Source: Pseudomonas migulae
Lineage (GTDB): Bacteria > Pseudomonadota > Gammaproteobacteria > Pseudomonadales > Pseudomonadaceae
Reading direction: 5' to 3'
Assembly: GCF_024169315.1 (NCBI RefSeq)
Contig: NZ_JALJWR010000001.1
Coordinates: forward strand, 1,137,501 to 1,201,500
Length of the DNA: 64,000 nucleotides
Numbering within the stretch: position 1 is the stretch's first letter; every line of letters starts with the position of its first letter. The notes below the pieces were generated by a model, which searched no databases, was not told the DNA's origin, and worked only from the letters and a program-made list of their open reading frames with translations. Positions 13,448 to 64,000 of the stretch are shown piece after piece. Position numbers and translations under genes: made by a program.

Positions 13448-13557
13448 CGACTGGTTCTGAGTCCTGTGATTGGCGCCCGATTGTTTCGAGCCTCGCAGCT
13501 GCCAATGGTTTCATAGAGGTTAGCTGATTCTTGCGGTAATCCGTGGCAGCCACAGAT

Positions 13558-13653
13558 CCCTGTGGGAGCGGGCTTGCCCGCGATGAGGGCCTGACAGTCA
13601 ACATTTTCATCGACTGCTACACCGCTATCGCGGGCAAACCCACTCCCACAGGG
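13558..13653. repeat. REPIN: inverted REP pair
   Basis: The left arm begins CCCTGTGGGAGCGGGCTTGCC and the right arm is its inverted copy with two substitutions (GCAAACCCACTCCC). The pair fills much of the gap between the kinase start and the GntR gene. Confidence 0.85.
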
Positions 13654-13679
13654 TGCAGCTTCAGATTCAAGATTGGTGG

Positions 13680-14369: not shown

Positions 14370-14478
14370 TTGAACACTCCCTTAGCGCTAAACAACCGGC
14401 CCCAGGCGAATGAGCAGCCTTTGAAAAAGGGGGTTGCACGAGCAGATTAATCCGGTTATTTGTAGATTGCATCCAGAT

Positions 14479-14490
14479 ATTGCATACAAT
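14479..14490 (+). promoter_or_regulatory. candidate GntR operator overlapping a -10 box
   Basis: ATTGCATACAAT is palindromic except at two central positions, and its right half TACAAT would serve as a -10 hexamer about 20 bases before the transporter ATG. ATTGCA occurs twice more nearby (14466 and 14500). FCD-type GntR proteins bind short inverted repeats of this kind. Inference from motif and position only. Confidence 0.4.
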
Positions 14491-14510
14491 AATTAGAGGA
14501 TTGCACCATT

Positions 14511-49824: not shown

Positions 49825-50226
49825 CTACTTCGCCGTAATCACCGACAATTTAGTAATCCCCGCCCGTTCAATCGAGGCCATCGCCCGAGCCACTTCGCCA
49901 TAATTCACGCCATTGTCCGCTTGCAGCTGCACACGCACGTCGGGGTTTTTCGCCTTGGCGGCCTGGAGGTTGAACTCGAGCAGATCCGCCTGGATTTCGT
50001 CCTTGTTGATGAACACCTTGCCCTTGTCGTCGATGCTCACCACCAGCGGGTCTTTCTGTTCCACCGGTGCCACCGATTCGGTCTTCGGCAGGTTGATCGG
50101 GATTGCGTTGGTCAGCAGTGGCGCGGTGACGATGAACACCACCAAAAGCACCAACATGACGTCCACCAAGGGCGTGACGTTGATCTCGCTGAGCACTTCA
50201 TCGCTGTCTTGTGTAGAGAACGCCAT
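49825..50226 (-). CDS. exbD: ExbD biopolymer transport protein
   Basis: 133 residues. An N-terminal transmembrane helix (VTPLVDVMLVLLVVFIVTAPLL) carries the essential Asp of the proton path, preceded by EINVTPLVD, and the periplasmic domain follows. ExbD with ExbB converts proton-motive force to TonB motion. It starts one base after the exbB stop. It is last in an apparent tonB-exbB-exbD operon beside a TonB-dependent receptor. Confidence 0.94.
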   Translation of the reverse strand: MAFSTQDSDEVLSEINVTPLVDVMLVLLVVFIVTAPLLTNAIPINLPKTESVAPVEQKDPLVVSIDDKGKVFINKDEIQADLLEFNLQAAKAKNPDVRVQLQADNGVNYGEVARAMASIERAGITKLSVITAK

Positions 50227-50227
50227 A

Positions 50228-50953
50228 TCAGGACGCCTCCTTGACTTTCTGCCCGGCGACGGTTGCGCCGGACTTGCTCAATGCCGGATGCAGGAGCACG
50301 CGGAACGCGTTTTTCTGCGCGAGGCTATAGAAGTCGTGGGCGAAGTCATCGAGGTCGGCGGCGGTCAGTTTCAGGCGACGCAGGAAGTAGTTGTAGACCA
50401 GCACCGCCGGCACGGCGACGGCGATGCCAACGCCGGTGGCTACGAGGGCGGCGCCGATCGGCCCGGCCACGGTTTCCAGGCTCGCCGAGCCCGCGGCACT
50501 AATACCTTTCAAGGCGGACATGATGCCCCAGACGGTGCCGAACAGGCCGATGAAGGGCGAGGTGCTGCCGATACTGGCGAGGATGGCCAGGCCGCTTTCC
50601 AGCGAGCGTCGTTCGCGCACGATCTGCTGGCGCAGGGCACGTTCGAGGCGGTCCTGGTGGTTGATTGCCTGGCTCAGGTCGGCGGCTTGCGCGTCTTCCG
50701 GTACCTGGATCGCGGCGTAACCGGCCAGGGCGACGCGCGCGGCTGCGCCCGGTTGGCTATGGGCCAGTTCAGCGGCGGAATCGAGACTGGACGCGGCCCA
50801 GAAGTGTTTGTGGAATTTGCGATCCTGGGTCTTCAGGCGGGTGAACTGCACGCCTTTGAGCAGGGCGAGACCCCAGGTGGCTACGGAAAACAGGATCAAC
50901 AGCCAGATGACGGTGTGTTCGACGGATTCGAAGGGGGATGCAATCAGGTTCAT
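50228..50953 (-). CDS. exbB: ExbB proton channel subunit
   Basis: 241 residues from MNLIASPFES, with GGAGAG seven bases upstream. Three transmembrane helices (VIWLLILFSVATWGLALLKG; GLAILASIGSTSPFIGLFGTVWGIM; PIGAALVATGVGIAVAVPAVLVYNYF) and the MotA/TolQ/ExbB signature ASIGSTSPFIGLFGTVWGI. Forms the pentamer around ExbD in the inner membrane. Confidence 0.94.
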   Translation of the reverse strand: MNLIASPFESVEHTVIWLLILFSVATWGLALLKGVQFTRLKTQDRKFHKHFWAASSLDSAAELAHSQPGAAARVALAGYAAIQVPEDAQAADLSQAINHQDRLERALRQQIVRERRSLESGLAILASIGSTSPFIGLFGTVWGIMSALKGISAAGSASLETVAGPIGAALVATGVGIAVAVPAVLVYNYFLRRLKLTAADLDDFAHDFYSLAQKNAFRVLLHPALSKSGATVAGQKVKEAS

Positions 50954-51038
50954 GGTCAGGCTCTCCAACAAGGCATTGAATCGGTTGTAGCGATGCGCCT
51001 TTTGTCAGGTGGCCCGCGGTGTATGTCGACAGGTTGCG

Positions 51039-51851
51039 TTACTTGATTTTGAAGTCGATGGGCACGTTGACCCAGCCGTCCTGGGCGATATCGCCCTGCT
51101 TGGCCGGGACGAAGCTCCAGCGTTTCACTGCTGCCAGCGCGGCGTCGTCGAGTTGATCGCGGCCGCTGCTTTTCTGAATCTGGATCTCGCCGGGTTTGCC
51201 GCTGGCCAGGACATGCACCCGCAGCAGCACCGTACCTTCCCAACCGCGACGCAACGCCAGCGATGGGTATTCCGGCGCCGGGTTTTTCAGGTAACCGGCG
51301 CTGGCCGACGCCGGGGTCACCGGTTTGGGTGCGGGCGGTGCCGGAGGAGCTGGCGCGGCGACCGGTTGTGGTGGCGCGGACGGTACCGGTGGCTGCTCCG
51401 CTGGTTTGGCAACGGGTTTGGGCGCCGGTTTGACCACGGGCTTGGGTTTGGGAACGGGTTTGGGTGGCGGTGGCTTGACCGCCAACTCATCTTCAACCGG
51501 TGGCGGAGGTTCGACCACGGGCTGCGCAATCGGCTCGGGCGGTGGCGGCTCCACCAACGGGGGTGCCGGCTGCGAGAACTCGATGGTCATCGGCGGGATC
51601 TCCGGCGGCACCACCGGCAGTGCCGGCGGTGGGTTCTGGTTGACCCAGGCGATCACCGCGCCATGCAGCACCAGCGCGAACACCCCGAGCAGGACGCCTT
51701 CGCGGCGACTCAGCACCCGCTTGGGCGTGCTGTGCAGCCGCGACAGTGCCAGGGGTTGCCGGAAGACCCGGCCAAGGTCGAGCAGTTCGCCAGCGGGTGC
51801 CGGGTGCCGGAACACCTCGAAGGCACGGGTGGCGCTCTGGACATTGCCCAT
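51039..51851 (-). CDS. tonB: TonB energy-transducing protein
   Basis: 270 residues from MGNVQSATRAF, with AGGAG seven bases upstream. One membrane helix (GVLLGVFALVLHGAVIAWV) near residues 54-72, a long proline-rich spacer with Pro-Lys repeats (PPPKPVPKPKPVVKPAPKPV), and the C-terminal TonB domain with PEYPSLALRRGWEGTVLLRV and VKRWSFVPA. The spacer spans the periplasm and touches the TonB box of outer-membrane receptors. It probably serves the adjacent receptor. Confidence 0.93.
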   Translation of the reverse strand: MGNVQSATRAFEVFRHPAPAGELLDLGRVFRQPLALSRLHSTPKRVLSRREGVLLGVFALVLHGAVIAWVNQNPPPALPVVPPEIPPMTIEFSQPAPPLVEPPPPEPIAQPVVEPPPPVEDELAVKPPPPKPVPKPKPVVKPAPKPVAKPAEQPPVPSAPPQPVAAPAPPAPPAPKPVTPASASAGYLKNPAPEYPSLALRRGWEGTVLLRVHVLASGKPGEIQIQKSSGRDQLDDAALAAVKRWSFVPAKQGDIAQDGWVNVPIDFKIK

Positions 51852-51937
51852 TGATTGACTCCTGTAGATCTTCAAAATTGATATCGAGGCCTGGGTGCCC
51901 GGGGACTCGCCCCTGCGCGGTCCTGACGCCTTGATCC

Positions 51938-53023
51938 CTACACGTGATCCACGTCCGGCTTCGCAGCCGACGGGGTGATTTCACCGATTTTCTCCAGCCG
52001 GGCGCGCACGATATTCCGGCTGATGCCGAGCAACCTGCCGGTCTGCAATTGGTTGCCGTGGCAAAAGCGGTAGGCCGTGCGAAACACGGTTTCCTCGATA
52101 TGCTCATAGAGGTTGGCCTGGTTGCTTTCGAACAGCGCCGTCAACGCTGATTCGAGATCGATCGGCCCCTGCAGGCTGTGGCCGGGTTGAACAGCGCTCT
52201 CGTTACGAATGCCCGAACTGCGCATATCCACCAGGTGCAGGTCATTGGGTTGCACCAATTGATGACGGCATACCAGCAAGGCGTGATGGATGGCGTTTTC
52301 CAACTCGCGGATGTTGCCCGGCCAGCTATGGCCCAAGAGCTTGCGTGCGGCGTCGGCACTCAACGTCGCGCGGTTGTAGCCCAGGCGTTGGCAATGCTCT
52401 TCCATGAAAAATTCCGCCAGCGGCAGGATGTCTCCCGGACGCTCTCGCAGCGCCGGCAACCGGATGGTCGCCACGTGCAGGCGATAGAACAGGTCTTCGC
52501 GAAAATGCCCGGCGACCACCGCGTCCGCCAGGTTGACGTTGGTCGCCGCCACCAGCCGCACATCGATCGGGATCGGCGTCCGCGAGCCCAGGCGCACCAC
52601 TTCGCGCTCCTGCAGTACCCGCAATAGCTTGACCTGCATGTTCAACGGCAAGTCGCCGATTTCGTCGAGGAACAACGTGCCGCCTTCCGCCGCTTCGAAC
52701 CAGCCGGCCTTGCTGGTGGTGGCGCCGGTGAAGGCGCCCTTCTCATGGCCGAACAGTTCGCTTTCCACCAGGGTTTCGGCAAAGGCGCCGCAGTTGACCG
52801 CCACGAAAGGCGCGTCGCCACGACGACTCAATCGATGGATGTGCCGCGCCACCAATTCCTTGCCAGTGCCGGTCTCGCCGAAGATCAATGCATTGGCCTC
52901 ACTCGGCGCCAGACGCTCGATGCGTGTCAGCAATTCCTGGGAGCGCGGGTCCTCGAAGACCAGCACCGTGGCACGCACTGACTTGGTCAGTTGACGGGCA
53001 TGTGGATGAGTGATGAGAGACAT
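51938..53023 (-). CDS. sigma-54-dependent enhancer-binding protein, SfnR-like
   Basis: 361 residues: no receiver or sensor domain, directly an AAA+ domain with Walker A GETGTGKE (49-56), the sigma-54 contact loop GAFTGA (96-101), Walker B GGTLFLDEIGDLP and RLVAATN, then a Fis-type helix-turn-helix (ETVFRTAYRFCHGNQLQTGRLLGISRNIVRARLEKIGE). Length and layout match SfnR, the activator of sulfone/sulfonate use in Pseudomonas, whose activity is set mainly by its own expression. Two GG-N10-GC promoters lie in the nearby divergent intergenic region, its likely targets. Confidence 0.9.
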   Translation of the reverse strand: MSLITHPHARQLTKSVRATVLVFEDPRSQELLTRIERLAPSEANALIFGETGTGKELVARHIHRLSRRGDAPFVAVNCGAFAETLVESELFGHEKGAFTGATTSKAGWFEAAEGGTLFLDEIGDLPLNMQVKLLRVLQEREVVRLGSRTPIPIDVRLVAATNVNLADAVVAGHFREDLFYRLHVATIRLPALRERPGDILPLAEFFMEEHCQRLGYNRATLSADAARKLLGHSWPGNIRELENAIHHALLVCRHQLVQPNDLHLVDMRSSGIRNESAVQPGHSLQGPIDLESALTALFESNQANLYEHIEETVFRTAYRFCHGNQLQTGRLLGISRNIVRARLEKIGEITPSAAKPDVDHV

Positions 53024-53063
53024 GAGCGGCTTATCCGGACCGAGAGAATGAACTCATAGTGAC

Positions 53064-53079
53064 GTATATTTTTATATAC
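53064..53079. promoter_or_regulatory. AT-rich palindrome upstream of the sigma-54 activator gene
   Basis: GTATAT TTTT ATATAC lies about 40 bases before the activator start, in an AT-rich tract that probably holds its promoter. It may be an operator controlling synthesis of the activator. Not matched to a known regulator. Confidence 0.35.
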
Positions 53080-53183
53080 AAATAATCATATAAATTCATT
53101 TATATATTCCTTAAACGAATATCAATTTTTGACCACGTTTTGGCTGAAACCCCCGCTGGCTCTGGTCCGGAGCAATCCAGACA

Positions 53184-53233
53184 GACTGCTGCTACAGCAA
53201 CAGTCCATCCGCACAAATGGCTGCTGGAGCAGC
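53184..53233. promoter_or_regulatory. two CTGCTG/CAGCAG inverted repeats between receptor and activator genes
   Basis: GACTGCTGCT-AC-AGCAACAGTC (53184-53205, one mismatch) and GCTGCT-GG-AGCAGC (53220-53233, perfect) lie between the receptor stop and the activator start. They could end the receptor transcript (no T-run is present) or be activator sites; a related palindrome is at 56059-56074. Confidence 0.4.
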
Positions 53234-53262
53234 AGTGAGCACCCGGCCAAAAAGCTGCTTTT

Positions 53263-55680
53263 TCAGAAATTGATCGTGGTTTGCAGGCCAAATGTCCGAG
53301 GCGCCACATAGGAGGTCGGATAGACCCCGCGCTGGTTGACGATTTGCGACAGCACCTTGTTGGATTGGTCGGTCAGGTTGTTGACGAAGCCCGTGACCTG
53401 CCATTTTTTACTGGCGGCCTGATACGTCACGCGAGCGTTGCCGGTCCAGTAGTCGGGGGTTTCCTGAACCGGATCTTCCTGCACCGTGGCGTTGTGATAG
53501 ATGTGGCTTCTATAGGCCCAGTCAGTCCCCAGGATGACTTGCCCGCCGATGGCAACTGGTATCCGGTAGTCGGTATCGAATCGGAAAGAGGTTTCCGGTG
53601 TCCGGTAGAACTTGTTGCCGCTGGCATCCAGGCTCACGCCGCCGATGGTGTACTCGAAGTTGGTGTACTCGGCACGCAGCAGCCCGAGACTGGTGGTGAC
53701 CCGCCAGAATTCGGTGGGCAACGCTTCGATCTCGAACTCGACACCCTTGACCTGGCCGTCGGAGCTGCCGGCGGTGCTGGTGATGGTGGTGCCCGGCACC
53801 TGTTGCTGGATGTTGAGTTGCAGGTTCTTGATGTCGTAATAGAACAGCGACACGTTGGCATTCAGGCGCCCGCCGAGCCAACTGGTTTTCAGCCCCAGTT
53901 CGTAATCGGTGAGGGTTTCCGGATCGGTTTCAATGATGCCCCGATTGACGATTGCCTGGTTGAAACCGCCGGAACGAAAACCGGTGGCGATCCGCGCATA
54001 ACCGAGAATGTCATCGGTGAAACGATACTCCGGGGTGATGTCCCAAGTGGTCTGGCTCCAGTCGGCATCCTTGCTCAATGACAGCGGCGCGACCAGTCCG
54101 GAACCCCTGACCGAATCCGGCGTACCCCCAGGCTGGGTGACGATCACCACGTTCTGGTTGGCAGGGGTGTCCTGGACCGTCAGGGTGGTTTCGGTAATCT
54201 CCTTGGATTCCCAGGTCTGGCGCAGGCCCAGGGTCAGCGCCGCACGGTCAGTGAAGCGGAACTTGGTGTTGCCGAACAGGGCGAAGCTCTTGGCGTCCTG
54301 GTCCCAGGAACTGCTGCTGTACTGTTCTTGGGTGGTGCCGCTCTTGAAGCGGATCGAGCTGGTGTCACTGTCGGCCTGCAAGTCGTAGTAATAGGCACCG
54401 AGCATCCAGGTCAGGCGCTGATCTGCTGGAGAACTCAAGCGCAGCTCCTGGGTGAACTGCCGGGACGAGGTATCGCCCAGGGTGCTGGTCTGGTCGAGCA
54501 AGGTTCCCGGTGGCACGCCGGCACGCACGTCGGTGTCGCCATCACCGTGGCTGAAGGCGGTGATCGACGTCAGGGTGTTTTCTTCCAGGTACCAGTTCAA
54601 CTTGAGGCTGAGGCCGACCTGGGTGTTCTCGCCGGTACTTTTGCCGCCCCAGAAATCACTGCGGTTGTCCGGATCGTCGCCATAGGGCGGGATATAGGAA
54701 CCCCCGCCCTGCCGGATGGCTCCACCGGGGTTGGGCGTGGTGACGTTGTTGACGCTGGTGGCGCCGACCAGAAAGTTCGGCGGGTTGCCGGTGTGCAGTT
54801 CCCGCACGTTGAGGCTCAGCAGCGCATCGAGGTTGTCGCCGAAGTTGCCCAGCAGCTGGAAGCGACCGTTGAAGTCTTCCAGCTGGGGGCCGGTTTCATC
54901 GGTGACGATGTTGTCCGCCCAGCCATCGCCTTTCTCGTAATAAATGGCTGCGCGGCCCGCCAGCTTGTCGTCGACCAATGCACCGCCACTGGCGGCTTCG
55001 AGGGTTCGTTTTCCGTAGCTGCCGATGCCCAGCTTGGTGTAGCCGCTATTTTCGAAAGTCGGTTTTTTCGAGATGAAATGGATCGCGCCGCCGGTGTTGT
55101 TCTTGCCCCACAAGGTGCCTTGCGGACCACGCAGGACCTCGACCCGTTCCAGGTCGAACAGCGGAAAGTTCTGGTCGCCCTGCAGGCCGATCACCACTTC
55201 GTCGACGTAGATCGACAGCGGCCCTTCCTGGTTGGCGTTGGGATCGTTGGTGCCGATCCCGCGCAGGAACCAGCGGGGTTTGCCGGTGCGCCCCCCGGTG
55301 TTGCTGCTGGACTGGGCCGACAGATTAGGCGCGAGACGCTCGACGTCGGTCGAGGTGGTGATGTCCTTGTCGCGGATGGCCTCACCGGAAATCGCGGTGA
55401 TCGGGATCGGTACGTCCTTGAGTTTTTCCGAGCGCTTCTGCGCGGTGACCACCACCGTATCCAGTTGATCGTCCTGTTCGCCAACCTGCGGATTCTGCTC
55501 GGTGCCGGCCTTCGCGGCGGGTTGTGCGGCGAAGGCCGAACCCGCCAGCAGACTGGCCGTCAGGCCACCGATGCATGCATGGGAGACGGCCTGAGCCAGA
55601 GTTTTCTTGAAATAACGCGAAGTATCCGGAACGAGCAAAGCAACGCTGGCTTTGCCTCTTTGTATATTCAGGCGCGACAT
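53263..55680 (-). CDS. TonB-dependent outer-membrane receptor
   Basis: 805 residues from MSRLNIQRGK, with AAGGAA upstream. An extended signal region ends near SAFAAQP; TonB-box-like DTVVVTAQKR; plug domain with VLRGPQGTLWGKNNTGGAIHFISKKP; 22-strand barrel ending NLTDQSNKVLSQIVN...FGLQTTINF with terminal Phe. No N-terminal STN signalling domain. The plug motifs are those of the general TonB-receptor class, which also imports non-siderophore organics. It has its own sigma-54 promoter and is divergent from the DszB/DszA-like operon, so its ligand is probably an organosulfur compound, not iron. Confidence 0.92.
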   Translation of the reverse strand: MSRLNIQRGKASVALLVPDTSRYFKKTLAQAVSHACIGGLTASLLAGSAFAAQPAAKAGTEQNPQVGEQDDQLDTVVVTAQKRSEKLKDVPIPITAISGEAIRDKDITTSTDVERLAPNLSAQSSSNTGGRTGKPRWFLRGIGTNDPNANQEGPLSIYVDEVVIGLQGDQNFPLFDLERVEVLRGPQGTLWGKNNTGGAIHFISKKPTFENSGYTKLGIGSYGKRTLEAASGGALVDDKLAGRAAIYYEKGDGWADNIVTDETGPQLEDFNGRFQLLGNFGDNLDALLSLNVRELHTGNPPNFLVGATSVNNVTTPNPGGAIRQGGGSYIPPYGDDPDNRSDFWGGKSTGENTQVGLSLKLNWYLEENTLTSITAFSHGDGDTDVRAGVPPGTLLDQTSTLGDTSSRQFTQELRLSSPADQRLTWMLGAYYYDLQADSDTSSIRFKSGTTQEQYSSSSWDQDAKSFALFGNTKFRFTDRAALTLGLRQTWESKEITETTLTVQDTPANQNVVIVTQPGGTPDSVRGSGLVAPLSLSKDADWSQTTWDITPEYRFTDDILGYARIATGFRSGGFNQAIVNRGIIETDPETLTDYELGLKTSWLGGRLNANVSLFYYDIKNLQLNIQQQVPGTTITSTAGSSDGQVKGVEFEIEALPTEFWRVTTSLGLLRAEYTNFEYTIGGVSLDASGNKFYRTPETSFRFDTDYRIPVAIGGQVILGTDWAYRSHIYHNATVQEDPVQETPDYWTGNARVTYQAASKKWQVTGFVNNLTDQSNKVLSQIVNQRGVYPTSYVAPRTFGLQTTINF

Positions 55681-55742
55681 TAAGTATTTCCTTTGCAGGC
55701 ACAGGCAGTGGAGGGTCTGACAACTAAAATCAAACTTGAAAT

Positions 55743-55758
55743 AGCAGAAACTGTGCCA
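55743..55758 (-). promoter_or_regulatory. sigma-54 promoter of the TonB-dependent receptor gene
   Basis: On the minus strand TGGCAC-AGTTT-CTGCT has GG (55757-55756) and GC (55745-55744) exactly 10 bases apart, matching the -24/-12 consensus TGGCAC-N5-TTGC at nearly all key positions. The predicted transcript starts about 50 bases before the receptor ATG. Confidence 0.75.
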
Positions 55759-56251
55759 TCTGCTATTAGCCACCTGAAACCCACTCAGCGCTTGAAAGAA
55801 ACAAGTTAAAGCCCCAACAAGTTCGTTGCACTTATGTTGCAAGCCAGACAACCCACTGCTGTTTGACTGCTGATTCTCCAGCACCCTTCGGCCTGGAGTT
55901 TTTCTTCCATATAAACAGTTAAATTCTGAAGCCGATGAACTGCGACATTTAAAGATAAGCTAATAACCAAACCACAAGGTCGCCACAACCCCGTATCTGC
56001 TGGACTTTACGCCTTCTGCTTGTGCGTTGCCTGCCTGGCAGCAATCGCTTCGGGAAAGTGCTGCCTATGCAGCAGCGTCTGGAAACGCCTGGCAATTACC
56101 CGCTATTTACTTATTCATCCACGCAAAAACAAATCCCGCCATTCCACCTTCTAAAAAAACCCACAAAGCCTTATTTCACGGGCCTCTCGCCGACTTCCAA
56201 CAACAACAAAAACAATACTCACAACCCTCAAACAACCCACCTTTAAAAGTT

Positions 56252-56267
56252 TGGCATGGAGTGTGCT
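56252..56267 (+). promoter_or_regulatory. sigma-54 promoter of the DszB/DszA-like operon
   Basis: TTGGCATGGAGTGTGCT has GG (56253-56254) and GC (56265-56266) with exactly 10 bases between, a good -24/-12 match. The predicted start lies about 35 bases before the first ATG (56313). Confidence 0.75.
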
Positions 56268-56312
56268 CTATTGATTAATGTCAATCTTCACCATCCCACT
56301 CGAGGACGTTCC

Positions 56313-57362
56313 ATGAGCACTTCCACTAACCCTGTAAAGTTGTTCTATACCCGGTGCGGTGCTGCCACTGCCTCGGCGCTGGCGATCCGCAAAAACTGGC
56401 TGCAGGAAGAGTTCGCCGCTCCGGGAACCGAGCTGCACTCCCTGCGCGATTCGGACAGCCTGGCCGTGCGCAATGCCCACTACCATCACCAGCAGAGCGG
56501 CCTGTTTCGCGAAGGCGGCAACATCCCGCCGATCTGGGCCAAAGGCAGTGGCCAGGACACCGTCGTCGTCGGTATCACCTGGCTCGATGAATACCAGGGC
56601 ATCCTCACCCGCGCCGACAGCGGCATCCGCGAAATCGCCGACCTCAAGGGCAAGCGCCTTGGTGTGCCACTGCACAGCAACGCCGTGATCGATTTCCAGC
56701 GCGGTGCTGCCCAACACGGTTTTGCCACGGCGCTGACGCTGGCCGGCCTGAGCCCTGAAGACGCCACCTTCGTCGACCTCGAAGCCCCCAGCTACGACAG
56801 CGAAGACGGCCCGCGAAAAATTCGCGACGAGCGTCCGGACGTGGCGATAGAGGCCCTGGAAAACGGCACTGTGGACGCGATCTTCCTGCGCTTTGCCCGC
56901 GGTTATCGCCTGTCCCGGGACCCGCGTTTCCATCAAGTGATCAACATCAATGAACTGCAGGATCCGCTGCTGCGGGTCAACAACGGCACGCCACGCCCGA
57001 TCACCGTCGACCGACTGTTCCTCGAGCAACACCCGGAACTGGTGGTGCGTTACCTCGCCGTACTGCTGCGGACCGCCGAATGGGCCGCCGCCCATCACGA
57101 AGAAGTGGTGCAACTGCTGATCCCGGAAGACCGCAACGCCACGGCGGCCGAAGTCATCGGCTCCCACGGCCCGGACGTGCACCGGTCGTTCACCCCCAAA
57201 TTGACCCCCGAGTACATCGAAGGGCTGACCGTGCAGAAAAATTTCCTGCGCGACTGGGGCTACCTCAAAGCCGATTTCGAGGTCAGCGACTGGATCGTCA
57301 GCGGCCCGTTGGAGCAGGCACAGAAACTCGTCGAGCAGGAAAGAACCGACGCGGCCGCCTGA
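56313..57362 (+). CDS. DszB-like sulfinate desulfinase (substrate-binding-protein fold)
   Basis: 349 residues, no signal peptide, so cytoplasmic. It has the NMT1/SsuA-type fold used by 2-(2'-hydroxyphenyl)benzenesulfinate desulfinase DszB (365 residues). DszB needs Cys27, His60 and Arg70; here Cys15 (FYTRCGAA), His56 and Arg66 (AHYHHQQSGLFREGGNIPP) take the same places, with the His-Arg distance and following GGxIPP kept. The C-terminal KLTPEYIEGLTVQKNFLRDWGYL also parallels DszB. Expected role: hydrolytic removal of sulfite from a sulfinate. It might instead be misannotated as a transport binding protein; absence of a signal peptide argues against that. GAGGACGTTCC precedes the ATG. Confidence 0.8.
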   Translation: MSTSTNPVKLFYTRCGAATASALAIRKNWLQEEFAAPGTELHSLRDSDSLAVRNAHYHHQQSGLFREGGNIPPIWAKGSGQDTVVVGITWLDEYQGILTRADSGIREIADLKGKRLGVPLHSNAVIDFQRGAAQHGFATALTLAGLSPEDATFVDLEAPSYDSEDGPRKIRDERPDVAIEALENGTVDAIFLRFARGYRLSRDPRFHQVININELQDPLLRVNNGTPRPITVDRLFLEQHPELVVRYLAVLLRTAEWAAAHHEEVVQLLIPEDRNATAAEVIGSHGPDVHRSFTPKLTPEYIEGLTVQKNFLRDWGYLKADFEVSDWIVSGPLEQAQKLVEQERTDAAA

Positions 57363-57400
57363 AACCTTAACCACGCATCAGCCTATTCTGGAGATCCACC

Positions 57401-58075
57401 ATGTCCGCTTTCGAAACCACCAATGACATCGACCTGGTCGCCTACATCGATCAAGCCCGGGCCGATGCCGTCCACGCCTTTGAAACCCTGCGCGAGAACG
57501 GCACCCTGTCCGCCAGCCTGACCTTCCACATCTCCCACCGTATTCCCGGTACCGACCAGTTGCTGGGAATCCGTTTCCCCGGTGGCCTGGCGCGCGACCA
57601 GGCACCGAAAGTCAGCGTCTCGGCCTTCTCGGAAAACCCCGGTTCACTGATCAACGAACCGCGCCTGGAAGCCGACACCGTGATCCATGTGCACACCGCG
57701 TGGCTGTCCGCCTGGTCGCTGGCCCACAAGCCGTTCCCGATCCTTTATGTGGCCGCCGCACGACACCTGCTGGCACGGGAAATCCCCAACCATCTGGAGC
57801 GCACCCGCAGCCCGCTGGAAGTCATCCGCGAGCGTCTCGACAAGCACCCGGAACTGGCACCACCGCCGGCCCTGCTGGAATCCAATGGCGGTGCCAACTT
57901 CTGGGGCACGGGCATCCTGAAAACCGCCGAGACCATCCTCTTCGTCGAAGAGGCCGCGCGCTTCCAGGCGATTGCCGAGCAGCTCGGCGGCGCCCAGGTA
58001 TACACCCCGGGCGCACTGGAACTGCAATGGAAACGCACCGGCCTGCTGGAGAAATCCAAAGCCTTCACCGGCTGA
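57401..58075 (+). CDS. class II aldolase/adducin-like protein with an altered metal site
   Basis: 224 residues from ATG with GGAG upstream. The class II aldolase fold is seen in SHRIPGTDQLLGIRFPGGLARD and VIHVHTAWLSAWSLAHKPF; His96 and His98 are the first two zinc ligands. The usual third-ligand segment NHGxxxWG reads NGGANFWG (162-169), so that His is Gly. An intact HTIL-type helix FVEEAARFQAIAEQLGG follows. Family members cleave or epimerise sugar phosphates; here a lyase or hydrolase acting on the carbon part of the imported compound is possible. It lies 38 bases after the desulfinase-like gene. Confidence 0.78.
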   Translation: MSAFETTNDIDLVAYIDQARADAVHAFETLRENGTLSASLTFHISHRIPGTDQLLGIRFPGGLARDQAPKVSVSAFSENPGSLINEPRLEADTVIHVHTAWLSAWSLAHKPFPILYVAAARHLLAREIPNHLERTRSPLEVIRERLDKHPELAPPPALLESNGGANFWGTGILKTAETILFVEEAARFQAIAEQLGGAQVYTPGALELQWKRTGLLEKSKAFTG

Positions 58076-58087
58076 ATCGGCGGATCC

Positions 58088-58174
58088 GGGGCGCCGTGCG
58101 CCCCTGACCGGCGAGAGGCTGTAGAGCCTGGGTACGCGCTGCGTACCCAAACCATGGGGTGTGCCTGGCACACC
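58088..58174 (+). promoter_or_regulatory. three tandem hairpins in an intercistronic gap
   Basis: GGGGCGC-CGT-GCGCCCC (58088-58104), GGGTACGC-GCT-GCGTACCC (58130-58148) and GGTGTGC-CTG-GCACACC (58158-58174) follow each other within 87 bases before the monooxygenase start. None has a T-run, so they are probably mRNA processing or stability elements that set different levels for the genes on either side. Confidence 0.7.
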
Positions 58175-58204
58175 TTCGGGCCCCGTATTCAGAGAGACGC
58201 ACCC

Positions 58205-59548
58205 GTGAGCCACGACAACAGCAAAAAACGCCAACTGGCCCTGAACGTATTCCTCCACCGTTTCGGCCATCATCCCGAGGCCTGGCGCCACCCCAGTTCA
58301 CAGGGCAACGGTCGCCTGGACCTGGCCTGGTGGATCAACGCCGCCAAGCTGGCCGAAGCCGCAAAGTTCGACACCTTTTTCGTCGCCGACTTCATCGGCC
58401 GTTCCGGTGACATCACCCCGCAGACTGGACGCAGCGGGCAAAACTATCAGTTCGAACCCTTTACCCTGTTATCCGCCATCGCCGCCGTGACCGAGCACAT
58501 CGGCCTGGTGGCGACCGTCAATACGAACTACGACTCGCCCTACCATGTGGCGCGCAAGTTCACCTCCCTGGACCACCTGAGCGGCGGTCGCGCAGGCTGG
58601 AACGTGGTCTCGTCGTTTTCCGAGCACACCGCGAAGAATTTCGGCATCGACGAGCCGCGCTCCCACGAAGAACGATACGAGCGCGCCGCCGAATTCATCG
58701 CCGTCACCAAGGCCCTGTGGGACACCTGGGATGACGACGCTTTCGACAATCCGGATCGCCAGGCCGGGGTGTTCTACGAAACCCGTTCGGCACATCCGGT
58801 CAACCACAAGGGCAAGTACTTCGACGCCGAAGGACTGCTGGATTTCCCCCGCCCGCTCCAGGGTTACCCGGTCATCGTGCAGGCTGGCAACTCGGAAACC
58901 GGGCTCGAATTCGCCGCTCGCGAAGCGGAGATGACCTACGCCTCGGCCCAGTCGCTGGACGTGGCCAAAGCCTATTACGCCAACCTGAAAGGCCGCATGG
59001 CGAAATACGGACGCGACGAAGACCAGCTGAAAATCACCCCGGGCCTATCGGTGGTGGTCGCCGAGTCCGATCAGGAAGCCCAGGACCGTTTCAACGAACT
59101 GCAGCAGCTGGTGGACGTGAGCAACATCAGCTTTGGCGGCTTCGATCTGTCCGGCTACCCGGTGGACGGTCCCCTGCCCGACCTGCCCTACCAGGCAGAA
59201 GCCAACGGCAAGGGGCGATTCCAGCAACAACTGGACCTGGCTCGCCGGGAGAACCTGTCGATCCGTGAGCTGGTCCTGCGTTTCCGCGTCTCGCGCGGCC
59301 ATCTCCAGGCCATCGGTTCGGTCAAGACCGTGGCCGACATCATCGAACAGTGGTTCGTCGAACGCGGCGCTGACGGCTTCAACGTGGTGCCGCCCTACTT
59401 GCCCCAGGGCTTCGAGGACTTCACCCGGCTGGTCGTCCCGGAACTGCAGCGACGCGGGATCTTCCGTACCGAATACGAAGGCAAGACCTTCCGCGAAAAC
59501 CTCGGCCTGAAACGCCCGGGCAATCCTCGCGATACCCGCAGCGCTTGA
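58205..59548 (+). CDS. FMN-dependent monooxygenase of the NtaA/SnaA/DszA family
   Basis: 447 residues. The GTG at 58205 with GAGAGAC upstream is the start; earlier codons fall in the hairpin region. Family landmarks: LNVFLHRFGHHPEAWRHP, FDTFFVADFIGRSGD, VATVNTNYDSPYHVARKFTSLDHLSGGRAGWNVVSS, HEERYERAAEF, and PRPLQGYPVIVQAGNSETGLEFAA. It uses FMNH2 and O2 to cleave C-S or C-N bonds; DszA turns sulfones into sulfinates, the substrates of DszB. No flavin reductase gene is visible in the operon. The pairing with the DszB-like protein suggests sequential oxidation and desulfination. Confidence 0.92.
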   Translation: MSHDNSKKRQLALNVFLHRFGHHPEAWRHPSSQGNGRLDLAWWINAAKLAEAAKFDTFFVADFIGRSGDITPQTGRSGQNYQFEPFTLLSAIAAVTEHIGLVATVNTNYDSPYHVARKFTSLDHLSGGRAGWNVVSSFSEHTAKNFGIDEPRSHEERYERAAEFIAVTKALWDTWDDDAFDNPDRQAGVFYETRSAHPVNHKGKYFDAEGLLDFPRPLQGYPVIVQAGNSETGLEFAAREAEMTYASAQSLDVAKAYYANLKGRMAKYGRDEDQLKITPGLSVVVAESDQEAQDRFNELQQLVDVSNISFGGFDLSGYPVDGPLPDLPYQAEANGKGRFQQQLDLARRENLSIRELVLRFRVSRGHLQAIGSVKTVADIIEQWFVERGADGFNVVPPYLPQGFEDFTRLVVPELQRRGIFRTEYEGKTFRENLGLKRPGNPRDTRSA

Positions 59549-59628
59549 GCTAGTCATGGAAGCCGTACCGACTTCTGCCGCCGGCTGCGGCGCAAGTCGT
59601 TTTTCTCACCGACGCTGGAACCGACGCC

Positions 59629-60690
59629 ATGCTGTATTACCTGTTGACTCGCCTGCTGGCGATGATCCCCACGCTGTTCGGGGTCCTGACCCTGACGTTC
59701 CTGGTCACGCAATTCGTCCCGGGCGGTCCGGTCGAGCAAGTGCTGAGCAACCTCGACCAGCAGAGCGCCCGCTCCGGTGCCGAAGGTGGCGTGGCCAGCA
59801 GCGGCTGGAGCTACAGCGGGCGCCAGGGCATCGACGAACAACAGGTGGTGCACCTGACGCGCCAGTACGGTTTCGATCAACCGGTCGGCGAGCGCTACGT
59901 GATGATGCTGAAGAACTTCCTGCAGTTCGACCTGGGGCAAAGTTACTTTCGCAACGAGAGCGTCTGGGAGCTGATCAAGTCCAAGCTCGGGGTCTCGGTG
60001 TCTTTGGGGATCTGGACCTTTGTCCTGACCTACCTGATCTCGGTGCCGCTGGGCGTGGCCAAGGCGGTGCGCGCCGGCAGCCGCTTCGACCTGATCAGCA
60101 GCCTGCTGATTCTCGCCGGCTATTCGATCCCCGGTTTCGTCCTCGGCGTGCTGTTGATCGTGCTGTTCGGCGGCGGTTCGTTCTGGGACGTGTTCCCGCT
60201 GCGCGGCCTGACTTCGGACAACTGGGACGAACTGAGCAGCATCGGCAAATTCACCGACTACCTGTGGCACATCACCTTGCCGGTCGCGGCCTCGGTGATC
60301 AGCACCTTCGCCCTGAAAACCCTGCTGACGAAAAACACCTTCCTCGAGGAAATCAGTCGGCAGTACGTGCTCACCGCCCGGGCCAAAGGTCTCTCGGAAC
60401 GCCGGGTGTTGTGGAAGCACGTTTTTCGCAATGCCTTGCTGCCGCTGGTGACCGGTTTTCCCGGCGCCTTCATCGCGGCCTTTTTCACCGGCAGCCTGCT
60501 GATCGAAACCCTGTTCTCCCTGGACGGGCTGGGCCTGCTGTCCTACGAGTCGATCAACAGCCGTGACTACCCGGTTGTCCTGGGCAGCCTCTACCTGCTC
60601 ACGCTGATCGGCCTGCTGACCAAGCTGGTGGGCGACATCGCCTATGTGCTGGTGGACCCACGGATCAAATTCGACGCCCAGGTGGCCTGA
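59629..60690 (+). CDS. ABC transporter permease (YejB/DppB-like)
   Basis: 353 residues, six predicted transmembrane helices, N-terminal motif YLLTRLLAMIPTLFGVLTLTFLVTQFVPGGPVEQ typical of YejB. The loop ARAKGLSERRVLWKHVFRNALLPLVTGFP is the EAA motif. YejB subunits carry the extra segment seen between helices one and two. The stop overlaps the next ATG by one base. Imports peptide-like or other bulky solutes. Confidence 0.92.
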   Translation: MLYYLLTRLLAMIPTLFGVLTLTFLVTQFVPGGPVEQVLSNLDQQSARSGAEGGVASSGWSYSGRQGIDEQQVVHLTRQYGFDQPVGERYVMMLKNFLQFDLGQSYFRNESVWELIKSKLGVSVSLGIWTFVLTYLISVPLGVAKAVRAGSRFDLISSLLILAGYSIPGFVLGVLLIVLFGGGSFWDVFPLRGLTSDNWDELSSIGKFTDYLWHITLPVAASVISTFALKTLLTKNTFLEEISRQYVLTARAKGLSERRVLWKHVFRNALLPLVTGFPGAFIAAFFTGSLLIETLFSLDGLGLLSYESINSRDYPVVLGSLYLLTLIGLLTKLVGDIAYVLVDPRIKFDAQVA

Positions 60691-61832
60691 TGACTTCGCA
60701 AACTGTTGCACCACCCTCGATCTGGCGCCGCTTCTGGCAGCGCCCACCCTACCTTCGGGCCCCGGTCGCGGATACCGACCTGGCCCCCGCCCTCACACCT
60801 GGCCGGCGCGTATGGTTGCGTTTCAAGCAGCACCGCCTGGGTTACTGGAGCCTGATCATTTTCACCTCGTTGTACCTGTTGAGCCTGGGGGGCGAGCTGA
60901 TCAGCAACGACAAGCCGCTGCTGATCTATTTCCAGCAGCACTGGTATTTCCCGTTGTTCGAGGACTACCCGGAAGCGGTCTTCGGCGGCCAGTTGCCGAT
61001 TCACGCCGACTACAACGACCCGTTTATCCGCGAGCAACTGGCACAGCCGGGGAACTTCGCGCTGTACCCGCTCAACCCCTATTACTACGACACCCTCAAC
61101 TACTTCTCCAACGCCGTGCATTACCCCGGCTCACCCACCGCAGAAAATCTGCTGGGCACCGATATCGCCGGCTACGACATCATTGCCCGGCTGCTCTATG
61201 GCTTCCGGGTCTCGGTAACCTTCGGCCTGGCGCTGACCTTCATCGGCACGGTGCTCGGGGTGTTGATCGGCGCCGTGCAGGGTTACTTCGCCGGCAAGAT
61301 TGACCTGTTCACCCAGCGCCTGATCGAGGTCTGGGGATCCCTGCCGGAGCTGTACCTGCTGATCATCTTCGCCTCGATCTTCGAGCCGAGCCTGATTCTG
61401 CTCTGCGTACTGCTGTCGCTGTTCGGCTGGATTTATCTGTCGGATTTCGTGCGTGCCGAGTTCCTGCGTAATCGTCAGCTGGAATACGTCAAGGCCGCGC
61501 GGGCCATGGGCCTGTCCCATGCCCAGATCATCTGGCGGCACATCCTGCCCAACAGCCTGACGCCGGTGATCACCTTCCTGCCGTTTCGCATGAGCGCGGC
61601 GATCATGGCGCTGGCCAGCCTGGACTTTCTCGGCCTGGGCGTCGAGGCACCGGCGCCGAGCCTTGGCCAGTTGCTGCTGCAGGGCAAGGAGAACCTCGAT
61701 GCCTGGTGGATCGCCGTGTCGGCCTTCGGCGTGCTGATGCTGACCCTGTTGCTCCTGACCTTCATGGGTGAAGCCCTGCGCAACGCCCTTGATACCCGCA
61801 TCGCCGACAAACCGCTGGCGGAGAACCTCTGA
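60690..61832 (+). CDS. ABC transporter permease (YejE/DppC-like)
   Basis: 380 residues with an N-terminal extension and a first helix at YWSLIIFTSLYLLSLGGELI, then a large periplasmic loop (about 75-165) characteristic of YejE, DGLTDIAGYDIIARLLYGFRVSVT-type entry to the membrane domain and an EAA loop ARAMGLSHAQIIWRHILPNSLTP. The next gene starts on its last base. Pairs with the YejB-like subunit. Confidence 0.92.
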   Translation: MTSQTVAPPSIWRRFWQRPPYLRAPVADTDLAPALTPGRRVWLRFKQHRLGYWSLIIFTSLYLLSLGGELISNDKPLLIYFQQHWYFPLFEDYPEAVFGGQLPIHADYNDPFIREQLAQPGNFALYPLNPYYYDTLNYFSNAVHYPGSPTAENLLGTDIAGYDIIARLLYGFRVSVTFGLALTFIGTVLGVLIGAVQGYFAGKIDLFTQRLIEVWGSLPELYLLIIFASIFEPSLILLCVLLSLFGWIYLSDFVRAEFLRNRQLEYVKAARAMGLSHAQIIWRHILPNSLTPVITFLPFRMSAAIMALASLDFLGLGVEAPAPSLGQLLLQGKENLDAWWIAVSAFGVLMLTLLLLTFMGEALRNALDTRIADKPLAENL

Positions 61833-63433
61833 TGAGCACGCCCTTGCTGAGCCTGGAACACCTGACGATCAGCCTCGGCAACCGCCGGGTGGTCGATGAC
61901 CTCAACCTGCAGATCCAGCCCGGCGAACGCCTGGCGCTGGTCGGCGAATCCGGCTCGGGGAAAACCGTGACGGCGCTGTCGATCCTGCGCCTGCTCGCCC
62001 AGGCGCGGATTCAAGGCAGCATTCGCCTGGAAGGCCAGGAGTTGCTGGAAAAATCCGAAACGCAGATCCGGCAGATTCGCGGGCGCGACGTGGCGATGAT
62101 TTTCCAGGAGCCGATGTCGGCGCTGAACCCCCTGTTCAGCATCGGTGAACAGATCATCGAGACCCTGCAACTGCACGAAGGCCTGACCCCGCGCGAGGCC
62201 CGGGAAAGAACCATCGCCCTGCTCGCCCGCACCGGCATTCGCGAGCCGGAACGACGGGTCGACAGCTATCCGCATCAGTTGTCCGGTGGCCAGTTGCAGC
62301 GGGCCGTGATCGCCATGGCGCTGGCCTGCCGGCCGAAACTGCTGATCGCCGACGAGCCGACCACCGCGCTGGACATGACTGTGCGTGCACGCATCGTGCA
62401 ACTGCTGCTGGATCTGCAGGACGAAGAACTCGCCCGCGGCGATGGCCAGGGCATGGCGATTTTGCTGATCACCCACGACCTCAACCTGGTGCGGCGCTTT
62501 GCCCAGCGCGTGGCCGTGATGGAACACGGCAAGCTGGTGGAGAGCAACGAAACCGCTGCACTGTTCGCCAATCCGCAACATCCCTACACCATCAAGCTGC
62601 TCAACAGCCGCCCGCAACGGCAGATCGAAGCGATCGCCAACGACGCCGCGACCTTGCTGCAAACCTCGGGGCTGCGCGTGGAGTATCCGAAGAAACGCCC
62701 GGGTTGGCGCGGCTGGTTCGGCCATGAGCGCTACATCGCCCTGGAAGGTGCCGAAGTCTCGTTGAAGGCTGGTGAAACCATAGGCGTGGTCGGTGAATCC
62801 GGCTCGGGAAAATCGACCCTGGCCCAGGCCATTCTCAGCCTGATCCCGGTGCAGGGTGGTGAACTGGCATTCGACGGCATCCCTATCAGCCAGCGTACCC
62901 GACAACAGAAGCGTGCCTTGCGCGCCCGGTTGCAGGTGGTGTTCCAGGACCCGTACGGCTCGCTTTCGCCGCGGCAGACGGTGGCGCAGATCGTCGGCGA
63001 AGGACTGGCCCTGCACTTCCCCGAACTGAATGCCGCGCAACGCTTGCAGCGCATCGTCGAAGTGCTGGGCGAAGTCGGCCTGCCCACCAGCGCCCTGACC
63101 CGTTACCCCCACGAGTTTTCCGGCGGTCAGCGCCAGCGCATCGCCATTGCCCGGGCGTTGGTGCTCAAGCCGCGGGTGGTGGTGCTGGACGAGCCGACTT
63201 CGGCCCTCGACGTCTCGATCCAGAACCAGGTGCTGCAACTTCTGGTCAGCCTGCAGAAAAAACACGCCCTGAGTTATGTGCTGATCAGCCATGACCTGGC
63301 GGTGGTCAATGCCCTGGCGCACCGCCTGTATGTCATGAAGGACGGGGTGATCGTCGAGTCCGGGGACACTGCCAGCCTGATCGCCAATCCCCGGCACCCC
63401 TATACCCAACGTCTGGTTCAGGCCTCGTTGTAA
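61832..63433 (+). CDS. ABC transporter dual ATP-binding protein (YejF-like)
   Basis: 533 residues with two fused ATPase domains. Walker A GESGSGKTVTAL (N half) and GESGSGKSTLAQ (C half); signatures LSGGQLQRAVIAMAL and FSGGQRQRIAIARAL; Walker B LLIADEPTTALD and VVVLDEPTSALD. This fused form is typical of Yej-type importers. Both sites look catalytically complete. Confidence 0.94.
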   Translation: MSTPLLSLEHLTISLGNRRVVDDLNLQIQPGERLALVGESGSGKTVTALSILRLLAQARIQGSIRLEGQELLEKSETQIRQIRGRDVAMIFQEPMSALNPLFSIGEQIIETLQLHEGLTPREARERTIALLARTGIREPERRVDSYPHQLSGGQLQRAVIAMALACRPKLLIADEPTTALDMTVRARIVQLLLDLQDEELARGDGQGMAILLITHDLNLVRRFAQRVAVMEHGKLVESNETAALFANPQHPYTIKLLNSRPQRQIEAIANDAATLLQTSGLRVEYPKKRPGWRGWFGHERYIALEGAEVSLKAGETIGVVGESGSGKSTLAQAILSLIPVQGGELAFDGIPISQRTRQQKRALRARLQVVFQDPYGSLSPRQTVAQIVGEGLALHFPELNAAQRLQRIVEVLGEVGLPTSALTRYPHEFSGGQRQRIAIARALVLKPRVVVLDEPTSALDVSIQNQVLQLLVSLQKKHALSYVLISHDLAVVNALAHRLYVMKDGVIVESGDTASLIANPRHPYTQRLVQASL

Positions 63434-63456
63434 TCCGGTTCATGGAAGCAGTGCTT

Positions 63457-64000
63457 ATGAAAGTGTTCAGACTCCCGTTGTTGCAGCCCCTGAATCGCCT
63501 GGCCCAGGGCATGACGTTCGCCGCTGTGCTGCTGGGTACCGCGTCACCGGCTTCGGCGGCCCATGCGGTCGCGCAATTCGGCACGCCTAAATACCCGGCG
63601 GATTTCCAGTACTTCGATTATGTGAATCCCCAGGCACCCAAGGGTGGCAGCCTGTCCATGTCGCTGGTCGCCACCAACAGCAGCTTCGACAAATACAACC
63701 CTTACAGCCTGCGCGGCACGCCGCCGCCGGGGTTGCTGGAATTGGTGTTCGAAACCCTGACCATCAACGGCCTCGACGAAATGAATACCCAATACGGCTT
63801 GCTCGCCGACGATATCCAGGTGGCCCCGGACTTCGGCGCGGTGGAGTTTCACCTCAACCCCAAGGCGCGTTTCTCCAATGGCGATCCGGTGACCGCCGCC
63901 GACGTGCTGTATTCGTTCCAGACGCTCACCGGTGGCAAGGCCAGCCCGCGCTTCAAAGCCTACTTCGGCGAAATCGAGCGGGTGGTGATCCTGGACCCAC
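63457..64000 (+). CDS. periplasmic binding protein (YejA-like), 5' part
   Basis: The first 181 codons are in the window. A signal peptide ends near SPASAAHA; then FGTPKYPADFQYFDYVNPQAPKGG and NPYSLRGTPPPGLLELVFETL, the opening of YejA-type family-5 binding proteins. Normal length is about 600 residues. The ATG at 63457 has GGAAG upstream; one at 63442 in frame is less likely. It should capture the ligand for the YejBEF-like permease. The gene continues past the right edge. Confidence 0.92.
   Translation, partial: MKVFRLPLLQPLNRLAQGMTFAAVLLGTASPASAAHAVAQFGTPKYPADFQYFDYVNPQAPKGGSLSMSLVATNSSFDKYNPYSLRGTPPPGLLELVFETLTINGLDEMNTQYGLLADDIQVAPDFGAVEFHLNPKARFSNGDPVTAADVLYSFQTLTGGKASPRFKAYFGEIERVVILDP

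Follow-up and report, generated by a model that had tools for sequence, protein, structure and literature searches.

Gene content of the island

Two divergent gene rows occupy the end of the window, by which we mean the whole 64 kb stretch of DNA that was analyzed. The minus strand carries the genes for a TonB-dependent receptor (TBDR), an SfnR-like sigma-54 activator and a tonB-exbB-exbD set. The plus strand, divergent from the TBDR, carries dszB1, ald, a gene for an NtaA-family monooxygenase, yejB, yejE, yejF and the gene for a YejA-like binding protein. Every gene that the first-pass annotation had named at this place is present. We located ∼6 kb more of the island past the window end (in locus L007; window position = L007 position + 62999), comprising the remaining part of the YejA-like gene and genes for a nitroreductase, an ABC exporter-fold protein and two further DszB homologues, dszB2 and dszB3. 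The features are as follows.

49825..50226, minus strand: exbD (Pfam PF02472, 107.9 bits)
50228..50971, minus strand: exbB (Pfam PF01618, 113.8 bits)
51039..51875, minus strand: tonB (Pfam TonB_C PF03544, 81 bits)
51938..53023, minus strand: SfnR-like sigma-54 activator (Pfam PF00158, 237.2 bits)
53263..55680, minus strand: TBDR (Pfam PF00593 and PF07715)
55743..55758, minus strand: sigma-54-like -24/-12 site upstream of the TBDR, TGGCACAGTTTCTGCT
56252..56267, plus strand: sigma-54-like -24/-12 site upstream of dszB1, TGGCATGGAGTGTGCT
56313..57362, plus strand: dszB1, DszB-like desulfinase (phmmer to DszB 2de2, E=4.3e-9)
57401..58075, plus strand: ald, class II aldolase-like protein (Pfam PF00596, 32.2 bits, cut-off 22.2)
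58154..59548, plus strand: NtaA/DmoA/DszA-family FMN-dependent monooxygenase (TIGR03860, 527.1 bits, cut-off 279.7)
59629..60690, plus strand: YejB-like permease (NF011712, 451.9 bits, cut-off 445)
60690..61832, plus strand: YejE-like permease (NF011596, 360.2 bits, below the cut-off of 439)
61832..63433, plus strand: YejF-like double ATPase (NF011713, 630.7 bits, below the cut-off of 834)
63442..64000, plus strand: YejA-like substrate-binding protein, 5' part (whole gene L007:443-2326)
L007:2352-2951, beyond the window: nitroreductase
L007:3028-4791, beyond the window: ABC exporter-fold protein
L007:5012-6061, beyond the window: dszB2
L007:6102-7148, beyond the window: dszB3

For the TBDR we take the ATG at 55680 as the start and not the GTG at 55884, because a sigma-54-like site falls between the two.

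Activator and sigma-54-like sites

The AAA+ domain of the activator begins at residue 22, and a domain profile search found no N-terminal sensor domain. The protein is 61% identical, over residues 1-356, to an activator of the same genome that lies behind an msuEDC-like cluster, which bears out its description as SfnR-like; the next best paralogue shares 55% over residues 3-264. The cluster next to the closest paralogue contains FMN-reductase, flavin-monooxygenase and acyl-CoA-dehydrogenase-like genes, and from this gene order we take it to be msuEDC-sfnR. A sensor-less sigma-54 activator, sigma-54-like sites and flavin monooxygenases liken the island to the SfnR/msuEDC/sfnFG regulon of Pseudomonas, from which it differs in having a separate activator of its own, beside uptake genes.

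The two sigma-54-like sites diverge between the TBDR and dszB1, and such pairs recur in related clusters. Subject to regions and a threshold that were chosen after the sites had been seen, to three near-identical regions (the window, L008 and L009) and to one region end set by hand (L012), chance is an unlikely source of the promoter pair: sites matching at least 10 of 12 positions point toward dszB1 in all eight intergenic regions compared and face both ways in six of them, whereas at most 0.2% of shuffles have sites in both orientations. Over the whole 64 kb window, two such sites are not above chance (mean 0.97; at least 2 in 28 of 100 shuffles).

Distribution and linkage

Among 398 Pseudomonas genomes, ald-like matches occur in 61 (E≤1e-3) and DszB-like matches in 64 (E≤1e-20), and 60 genomes hold both (Fisher p = 3.5e-65, a value that overstates independence as the species are related). 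The linkage of ald and DszB is far beyond chance. In 35 of the 43 rows listed at 35-41% identity to dszB3, ald is preceded on its own strand by a DszB-like gene at a distance of 64-112 bp. Across 22 long loci, we find within 10 kb of ald a DszB gene in 20, a flavin monooxygenase in 20, a TBDR in 17, an exporter-fold ABC gene in 14 and a gene of the nitroreductase or flavin-reductase type in 13; an activator is near ald in 9, and tonB-exbBD and Yej genes in 7 each (one Yej distant). No DszB gene was found within 10 kb of ald in L027, and no monooxygenase at the cut-off used in L019 and L020. The common core consists of ald, DszB and a flavin monooxygenase, usually with a TBDR; genes for Yej and TonB join it locally.

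The first-pass annotation had described the locus as self-contained within 14 kb and had suggested co-occurrence across genomes as a check. Its genes do adjoin, but the island runs on past the window, and with tonB-exbBD and Yej linked in 7 of the 22 long loci each, its composition is one local form of a mosaic; co-occurrence holds for the ald-DszB pair and largely for the TBDR, and for the TonB and Yej genes in a minority of loci. In a phylum-wide sample, ald (E≤1e-20) is confined to 5 of 398 genomes, all of the window's family, and this sample therefore affords no co-occurrence test across families. The DszB genes of one long locus (L010) seem to begin just past the locus flank.

The flavin monooxygenase

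The monooxygenase scores above the NtaA/DmoA-family cut-off of NCBIfam; its true start may be slightly downstream of 58154. Judged from scores alone, without a tree, it is no closer to BdsA/DszA (287.6 bits) than to YtnJ (320.8 bits) or nitrilotriacetate monooxygenase (288.9 bits), and its earlier designation as DszA-type is too specific. We found no DszC/SfnB-like gene among the island genes, and a full 4S-type route from a thioether is therefore not encoded in the island; SfnB/DszC-like genes are located elsewhere in the same genome.

That YtnJ and other NtaA-family members score equal to or above BdsA would also fit a YtnJ-like or DmoA-like enzyme that cleaves thioethers, with the DszB-like proteins using sulfinates from elsewhere and no DszA-to-DszB relay. 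Some loci pair DszB-like genes with SsuD-like enzymes, without a close dszA homologue. We regard this reading as a serious possibility but rather unlikely, as the order dszB1-ald-dszA is kept in the window and in L008, L009, L011, L012, L013, L016 and L029, and we favor a relay in which the monooxygenase would supply a sulfinate to the DszB homologues.

Uptake genes

The genome has five TonB_C matches, of which the tonB of the island scores best. According to the accessible part of PMC3377617, tonB2-exbB-exbD of P. aeruginosa (PA0197-99) is strongly up under sulfate starvation; the island resembles this TonB system, compared by its tie to sulfur supply alone, and differs in that its tonB-exbBD genes are physically joined to a desulfinase operon. 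The accessible part of a PAO1 sulfur-starvation study names TonB for FpvA only (PMC12581299). The inner-membrane genes resemble the YejABEF peptide/microcin C importer in a YejB above its NCBIfam cut-off and in a YejA-like binding protein, and differ from it in YejE and YejF proteins below their cut-offs and in their linkage to desulfurization genes.

Compared with PDB entries, the TBDR matches siderophore receptors at low scores, and the binding protein scores best with 7z8e (351.8 bits) and about equally with YejA (326.6 bits) and the methanobactin-binding MbnE (322.8 bits). These matches, the exporter-fold ABC genes in many of the long loci and the siderophore-interacting proteins in 3 of the 22 (all three Novosphingobium) would be consistent with an island that imports a metal chelate or a modified peptide of siderophore- or methanobactin-like kind, with sulfur enzymes that release the metal by breaking open its ligand or that recover sulfur only secondarily. 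We consider this improbable: TBDR matches at such scores are generic, the activator resembles the msu-linked paralogue, and the product released by DszB-type chemistry is sulfite (PMC12168087, accessible part). An organosulfur compound imported for its sulfur remains our preferred cargo.

The DszB homologues and ald

Both dszB1 and dszB2 align with equivalents of DszB Cys-27, His-60, Arg-70 and Gly-73, which for dszB1 agrees with its initial assignment as a DszB-like desulfinase; Cys-27, His-60 and Arg-70 are implicated in desulfination by DszB (PMC6100217, accessible part). Among 97 non-identical DszB-family rows, all four residues are kept in 15/15 dszB1-type and 30/30 close dszB2-type rows, and 6 of 23 distant dszB2-type rows deviate, five of them lacking the Cys. 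DszB itself is very distant in the tree, with an end branch of 4.9 changes per column. It is very unlikely that the DszB-like proteins are binding proteins only and not desulfinases: the NMT1/SsuA families are common to both kinds, and most of 120 listed dszB2 relatives are named ABC-transporter substrate-binding protein (4 are named 2'-hydroxybiphenyl-2-sulfinate desulfinase, names not being evidence of function), but the conserved C/H/R/G set and the lack of an apparent signal peptide in dszB1 on inspection by eye argue for enzymes.

Replacement of Cys-27 by Ser inactivates DszB. A Ser is found at this position in 27 of 28 close dszB3 rows, including the copy of the window genome; the extracted sequence of the 28th stops short of it. 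By a simple counting method, the median dN/dS of dszB3 is 0.18 (range 0.046-0.376; 45 pairs, 10 sequences) and that of dszB2 is 0.17 (36 pairs, 9 sequences). dszB3 is under purifying selection, and we dropped the idea of a decaying gene on this median. It usually lies directly after dszB2; among the matches listed, 8 of 57 dszB3-like rows are without a dszB2 directly upstream, in a survey that scored the best 5 candidates per genome at most, so that a missing dszB2 does not equal absence.

Class II aldolases bind their metal by three His residues, an HxH pair and a later His. The ald protein shares with the class II aldolase/adducin family a PF00596 score over the cut-off and the HxH pair, and differs in a Gly (NGG) in place of the third His, in ald and its relatives alike (33 aligned rows); five class II aldolase members of its own genome have His there (NHG, HHG or GHG). 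The label aldolase-like therefore holds for family and HxH pair but not for the canonical metal site. A profile search against PDB sequences found no solved relative of ald.

A proposed sulfur-scavenging route

Judged from its genes and sites, the locus is probably a sigma-54-controlled sulfur-starvation scavenging island that ends in sulfite release. We infer its sulfur regulation, its class of substrate and its order of reactions as follows. Under sulfate limitation, the SfnR-like activator would turn on two divergent transcripts, one for the TBDR (the activator and tonB-exbB-exbD follow downstream on that strand, perhaps with a separate promoter) and the other for the enzymes together with the inner-membrane transporter. 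The organosulfur substrate would pass the outer membrane via the TBDR, be bound by the YejA-like protein and enter the cytoplasm by YejB/YejE/YejF. There, the FMN-dependent monooxygenase would oxidatively cut one C-S bond to yield a sulfinate, with reduced flavin probably provided by the nitroreductase or by a flavin reductase of the host, and dszB1 and dszB2 would free sulfite for cysteine synthesis. The product of ald, encoded together with dszB1, has as its probable target the carbon skeleton or an oxygenated sulfur intermediate, and dszB3, without the catalytic Cys, probably binds sulfinate without cleaving it, as a partner, a carrier or a different enzyme. A bulky aryl sulfone or sulfonate as the substrate is a guess.

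DszB-type desulfination is known chiefly from fuel biodesulfurization. The share of sampled Pseudomonas genomes with DszB-like genes, joined in this island to uptake across the outer membrane and to a regulator of the sulfur type, points to a natural function on soil compounds. Finding the substrate would account for a widespread part of sulfur scavenging, yield new desulfinases and make it testable why a Cys-less copy stays under selection beside an active one.

Like the 4S pathway of Rhodococcus (DszA-DszB, with BdsA as the solved DszA), the island has in one gene row a monooxygenase of the NtaA family and a DszB homologue that carries the four active-site residues. It differs in that no DszC was found among its genes, in a monooxygenase that is not specifically DszA and in having three DszB homologues, very distant from DszB in sequence, together with a TBDR and an importer. 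DszB is called slow or rate-limiting in the accessible parts of the biodesulfurization literature. The parts of the island are mostly of known kinds. Its gene set is not described in the accessible parts of the literature searched (including PMC12316311, PMC12581299, PMC13352529, PMC13393423, PMC12168087, PMC6100217, PMC3377617 and PMC2265553), most subscription papers lying outside it; the desulfinase of PMC12316311 is, in its accessible part, of the cysteine-sulfinate kind. The first-pass claim of a combination without a described pathway stands within this literature, but a link between TonB and sulfur had been reported.

A further, tentative and somewhat doubtful proposal is that the island and its relatives encode a two-part desulfination machine that is absent from the papers searched. 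It would pair a catalytic DszB homologue with a pseudo-desulfinase that has Ser for Cys, the latter holding, presenting or sensing the sulfinate or carrying out a different reaction. A protein of the class II aldolase fold that has lost one metal ligand would cooperate directly with the first desulfinase, and their sulfinate may be aliphatic and oxygenated, not aryl. The Ser form requires three origins on the tree. Ser and Cys forms stand together in one locus in Pseudomonas, Methylovorus (L017, L018) and Burkholderia (L058), and L021 and L022 hold the Ser form only, with His and Arg lost as well.

Gene content and conservation of the island

Gene calls and domain scans located every gene named in the first-pass annotation within the window (G000:C1:1137501-1201500; genome size 6.54 Mb). 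Past the window end, the plus strand continues with the remainder of the YejA-like binding protein, a nitroreductase, an exporter-fold ABC protein and two further DszB homologues, dszB2 and dszB3; a minus-strand LysR gene comes after this row. A dszB2 query against the own genome returned four matches, three inside the island and a weak fourth one (E = 0.006). The island is real and conserved, and its purpose is most likely organosulfur scavenging. It would most likely represent a new version of known sulfur-starvation systems. Two conserved components are without explanation, the aldolase-like protein (ald) lacking its third metal histidine and dszB3 lacking its cysteine. Our searches, which covered part of the literature, brought up no description of a TonB-linked DszB pathway, and neither the aldolase-like protein nor a DszB paralogue lacking the cysteine was the subject of a listed paper; PMC13393423 covers P. 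aeruginosa strains under copper exposure.

Co-occurrence had been proposed as a check and was borne out for ald and DszB: 60 of 398 Pseudomonas genomes contain both ald-like (61 genomes) and DszB-like (64 genomes) matches. The 61 include nine close forms (at least 81% identical, own genome counted) and five weak ones (E 2e-7 to 8e-4). Among the matches listed, 43 rows are 35-41% identical to dszB3; 35 sit 64-112 bp upstream of a same-strand ald and 8 elsewhere. The ald of the window is 99% identical to its counterpart in Pseudomonas sp. Irchel s3h14 (locus L008), where the window's gene set recurs; loci L009 and L011 differ in that tonB-exbBD is not nearby. dszB2 and dszB3 lie beyond the flanks of these three loci and are present in genomes G336, G208 and G229.

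We sampled 24 ald loci of other genomes. Up to 10 kb from ald, the 22 loci that have long flanks contain DszB (20), a flavin monooxygenase (20), a TonB-dependent receptor (17), exporter-fold ABC proteins (14), a nitroreductase type (13), a family-5 binding protein (10), the activator (9), tonB/exbB/exbD (7), Yej (7, one being a 27% permease match), an SsuA-like binding protein (6), SfnB/DszC-like genes (3) and a siderophore-interacting protein (3). The core is therefore ald, DszB and the monooxygenase, usually plus the receptor, and transport and energy modules are exchanged.

A phylum-wide sample contained ald in 5 of 398 genomes, all of the window's family, and a separate locus search added some beta- and alphaproteobacterial members. 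The distribution looks patchy, as would be expected from horizontal spread. The L013 contig, which bears the label of a Pedobacter (Bacteroidota) MAG, carries the cluster with an ald 84% identical to the window's, reflecting either mis-binning or transfer. In Novosphingobium (L025, L026, L031), DszB and ald lie beside a siderophore-interacting protein and a second TonB-dependent receptor type. Distant ald paralogues (L044-L051, ∼35-49% identical) are far more widespread among Pseudomonas genomes than the close form. Of the eight loci retrieved, several also contain SfnB-like and SsuD-like genes, exporter-fold ABC pairs, and dszB2 or dszB3; in L048, a gene that is sulfatase-like by eye (13421-14992) shares 19 kb with ald2, dszB2 and dszB3.

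The aldolase-like protein and the monooxygenase

The ald protein is a low-scoring member of Pfam PF00596 (32.2 bits versus a cut-off of 22.2), and its profile matched no PDB chain. It retains the HxH pair, and the third metal histidine is replaced by glycine (NGG) in 33/33 aligned rows; at this position NHG, HHG or GHG is read in five other class II aldolases encoded by the genome, a sixth row being left out as out of frame. The monooxygenase, previously described as DszA-type, is a clear NtaA/DmoA-family member, but score comparison does not assign it to DszA specifically. DszC/SfnB-like genes adjoin the genome's two other NtaA-family loci, and none was found among the island genes.

A conserved Cys-to-Ser DszB homologue

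Rhodococcus DszB (2de2) is matched by dszB1 (E = 4.3e-9) and dszB2 (E = 3.1e-10). According to PMC6100217 and PMC12168087, DszB is inactive with Ser at position 27, His-60 and Arg-70 are thought to participate in the reaction, and Arg-70 lies within a conserved RXGG motif. We aligned 97 non-identical DszB-family rows with DszB and read positions 27/60/70/73. CHRG is found in 15/15 dszB1-type and 30/30 close dszB2-type rows (at least 55% identical), and SHRG in 27 of 28 close dszB3-type rows, the 28th as extracted stopping short of position 27. The 23 distant rows nearest dszB2 contain CHRG (17), CDRG (1), SHRG (2), SIRG (1) and SQFG (2); the sole distant row nearest dszB3 has CHRG. The natural Ser in dszB3 (L007:6102-7148, own genome) and other Pseudomonas dszB3-like genes equals the laboratory inactivating change of DszB, yet the gene is conserved. 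dszB3 is under purifying selection similar to dszB2.

A quick tree of 63 DszB-family rows, calculated with the position-27 column left out, requires a minimum of three Cys/Ser changes: in the dszB3 clade (SH-aLRT 100), a Methylovorus protein and a Burkholderiales clade. The Methylovorus protein sits on a long branch, which makes its placement less certain, and DszB itself on a very long one; the Methylovorus Ser form apparently has a separate origin. In Methylovorus locus L017, Ser-type and Cys-type homologues lie within ∼3 kb (from 263, plus strand, and from 2125, minus strand), and Methylovorus L018 is alike.

dszB3-like genes number 57 rows in 56/398 Pseudomonas genomes, Ser being read in 27 of the 28 close rows fetched for alignment. 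In 49 of the 57, the immediately preceding gene is dszB2, 41-167 bp away and in the same orientation. Genome G262 has a C-terminal dszB3 fragment (C1:1975722-1976066, 96% identical, query residues 233-347) and no further match at E ≤ 1e-20; the fragment is perhaps the leftover of a lost island.

Regulation and uptake

The activator, in which a sensor domain was undetected, is 61% identical to an own-genome paralogue. That paralogue follows FMN-reductase-, flavin-monooxygenase- and acyl-CoA-dehydrogenase-like genes, and we take this arrangement to be msuEDC-sfnR. The region between the receptor gene and dszB1 contains sigma-54-like sites pointing both ways. Scored against an assumed consensus, the dszB1-facing site reaches at least 10/12 positions in 8/8 regions, three of them (window, L008, L009) near-identical. 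The receptor-facing site does so in 6/8, reaching only 9/12 in L016 and L029. Both sites occurred in at most 0.2% of shuffled regions, with region limits and threshold chosen after the sites had been inspected. Against their significance, two such sites across the whole window are not unusual.

By NCBIfam cut-offs, YejB scores above and YejE and YejF below. The receptor matches siderophore receptors with low scores, and matches of the island binding protein are 7z8e, YejA and MbnE, which binds methanobactin.
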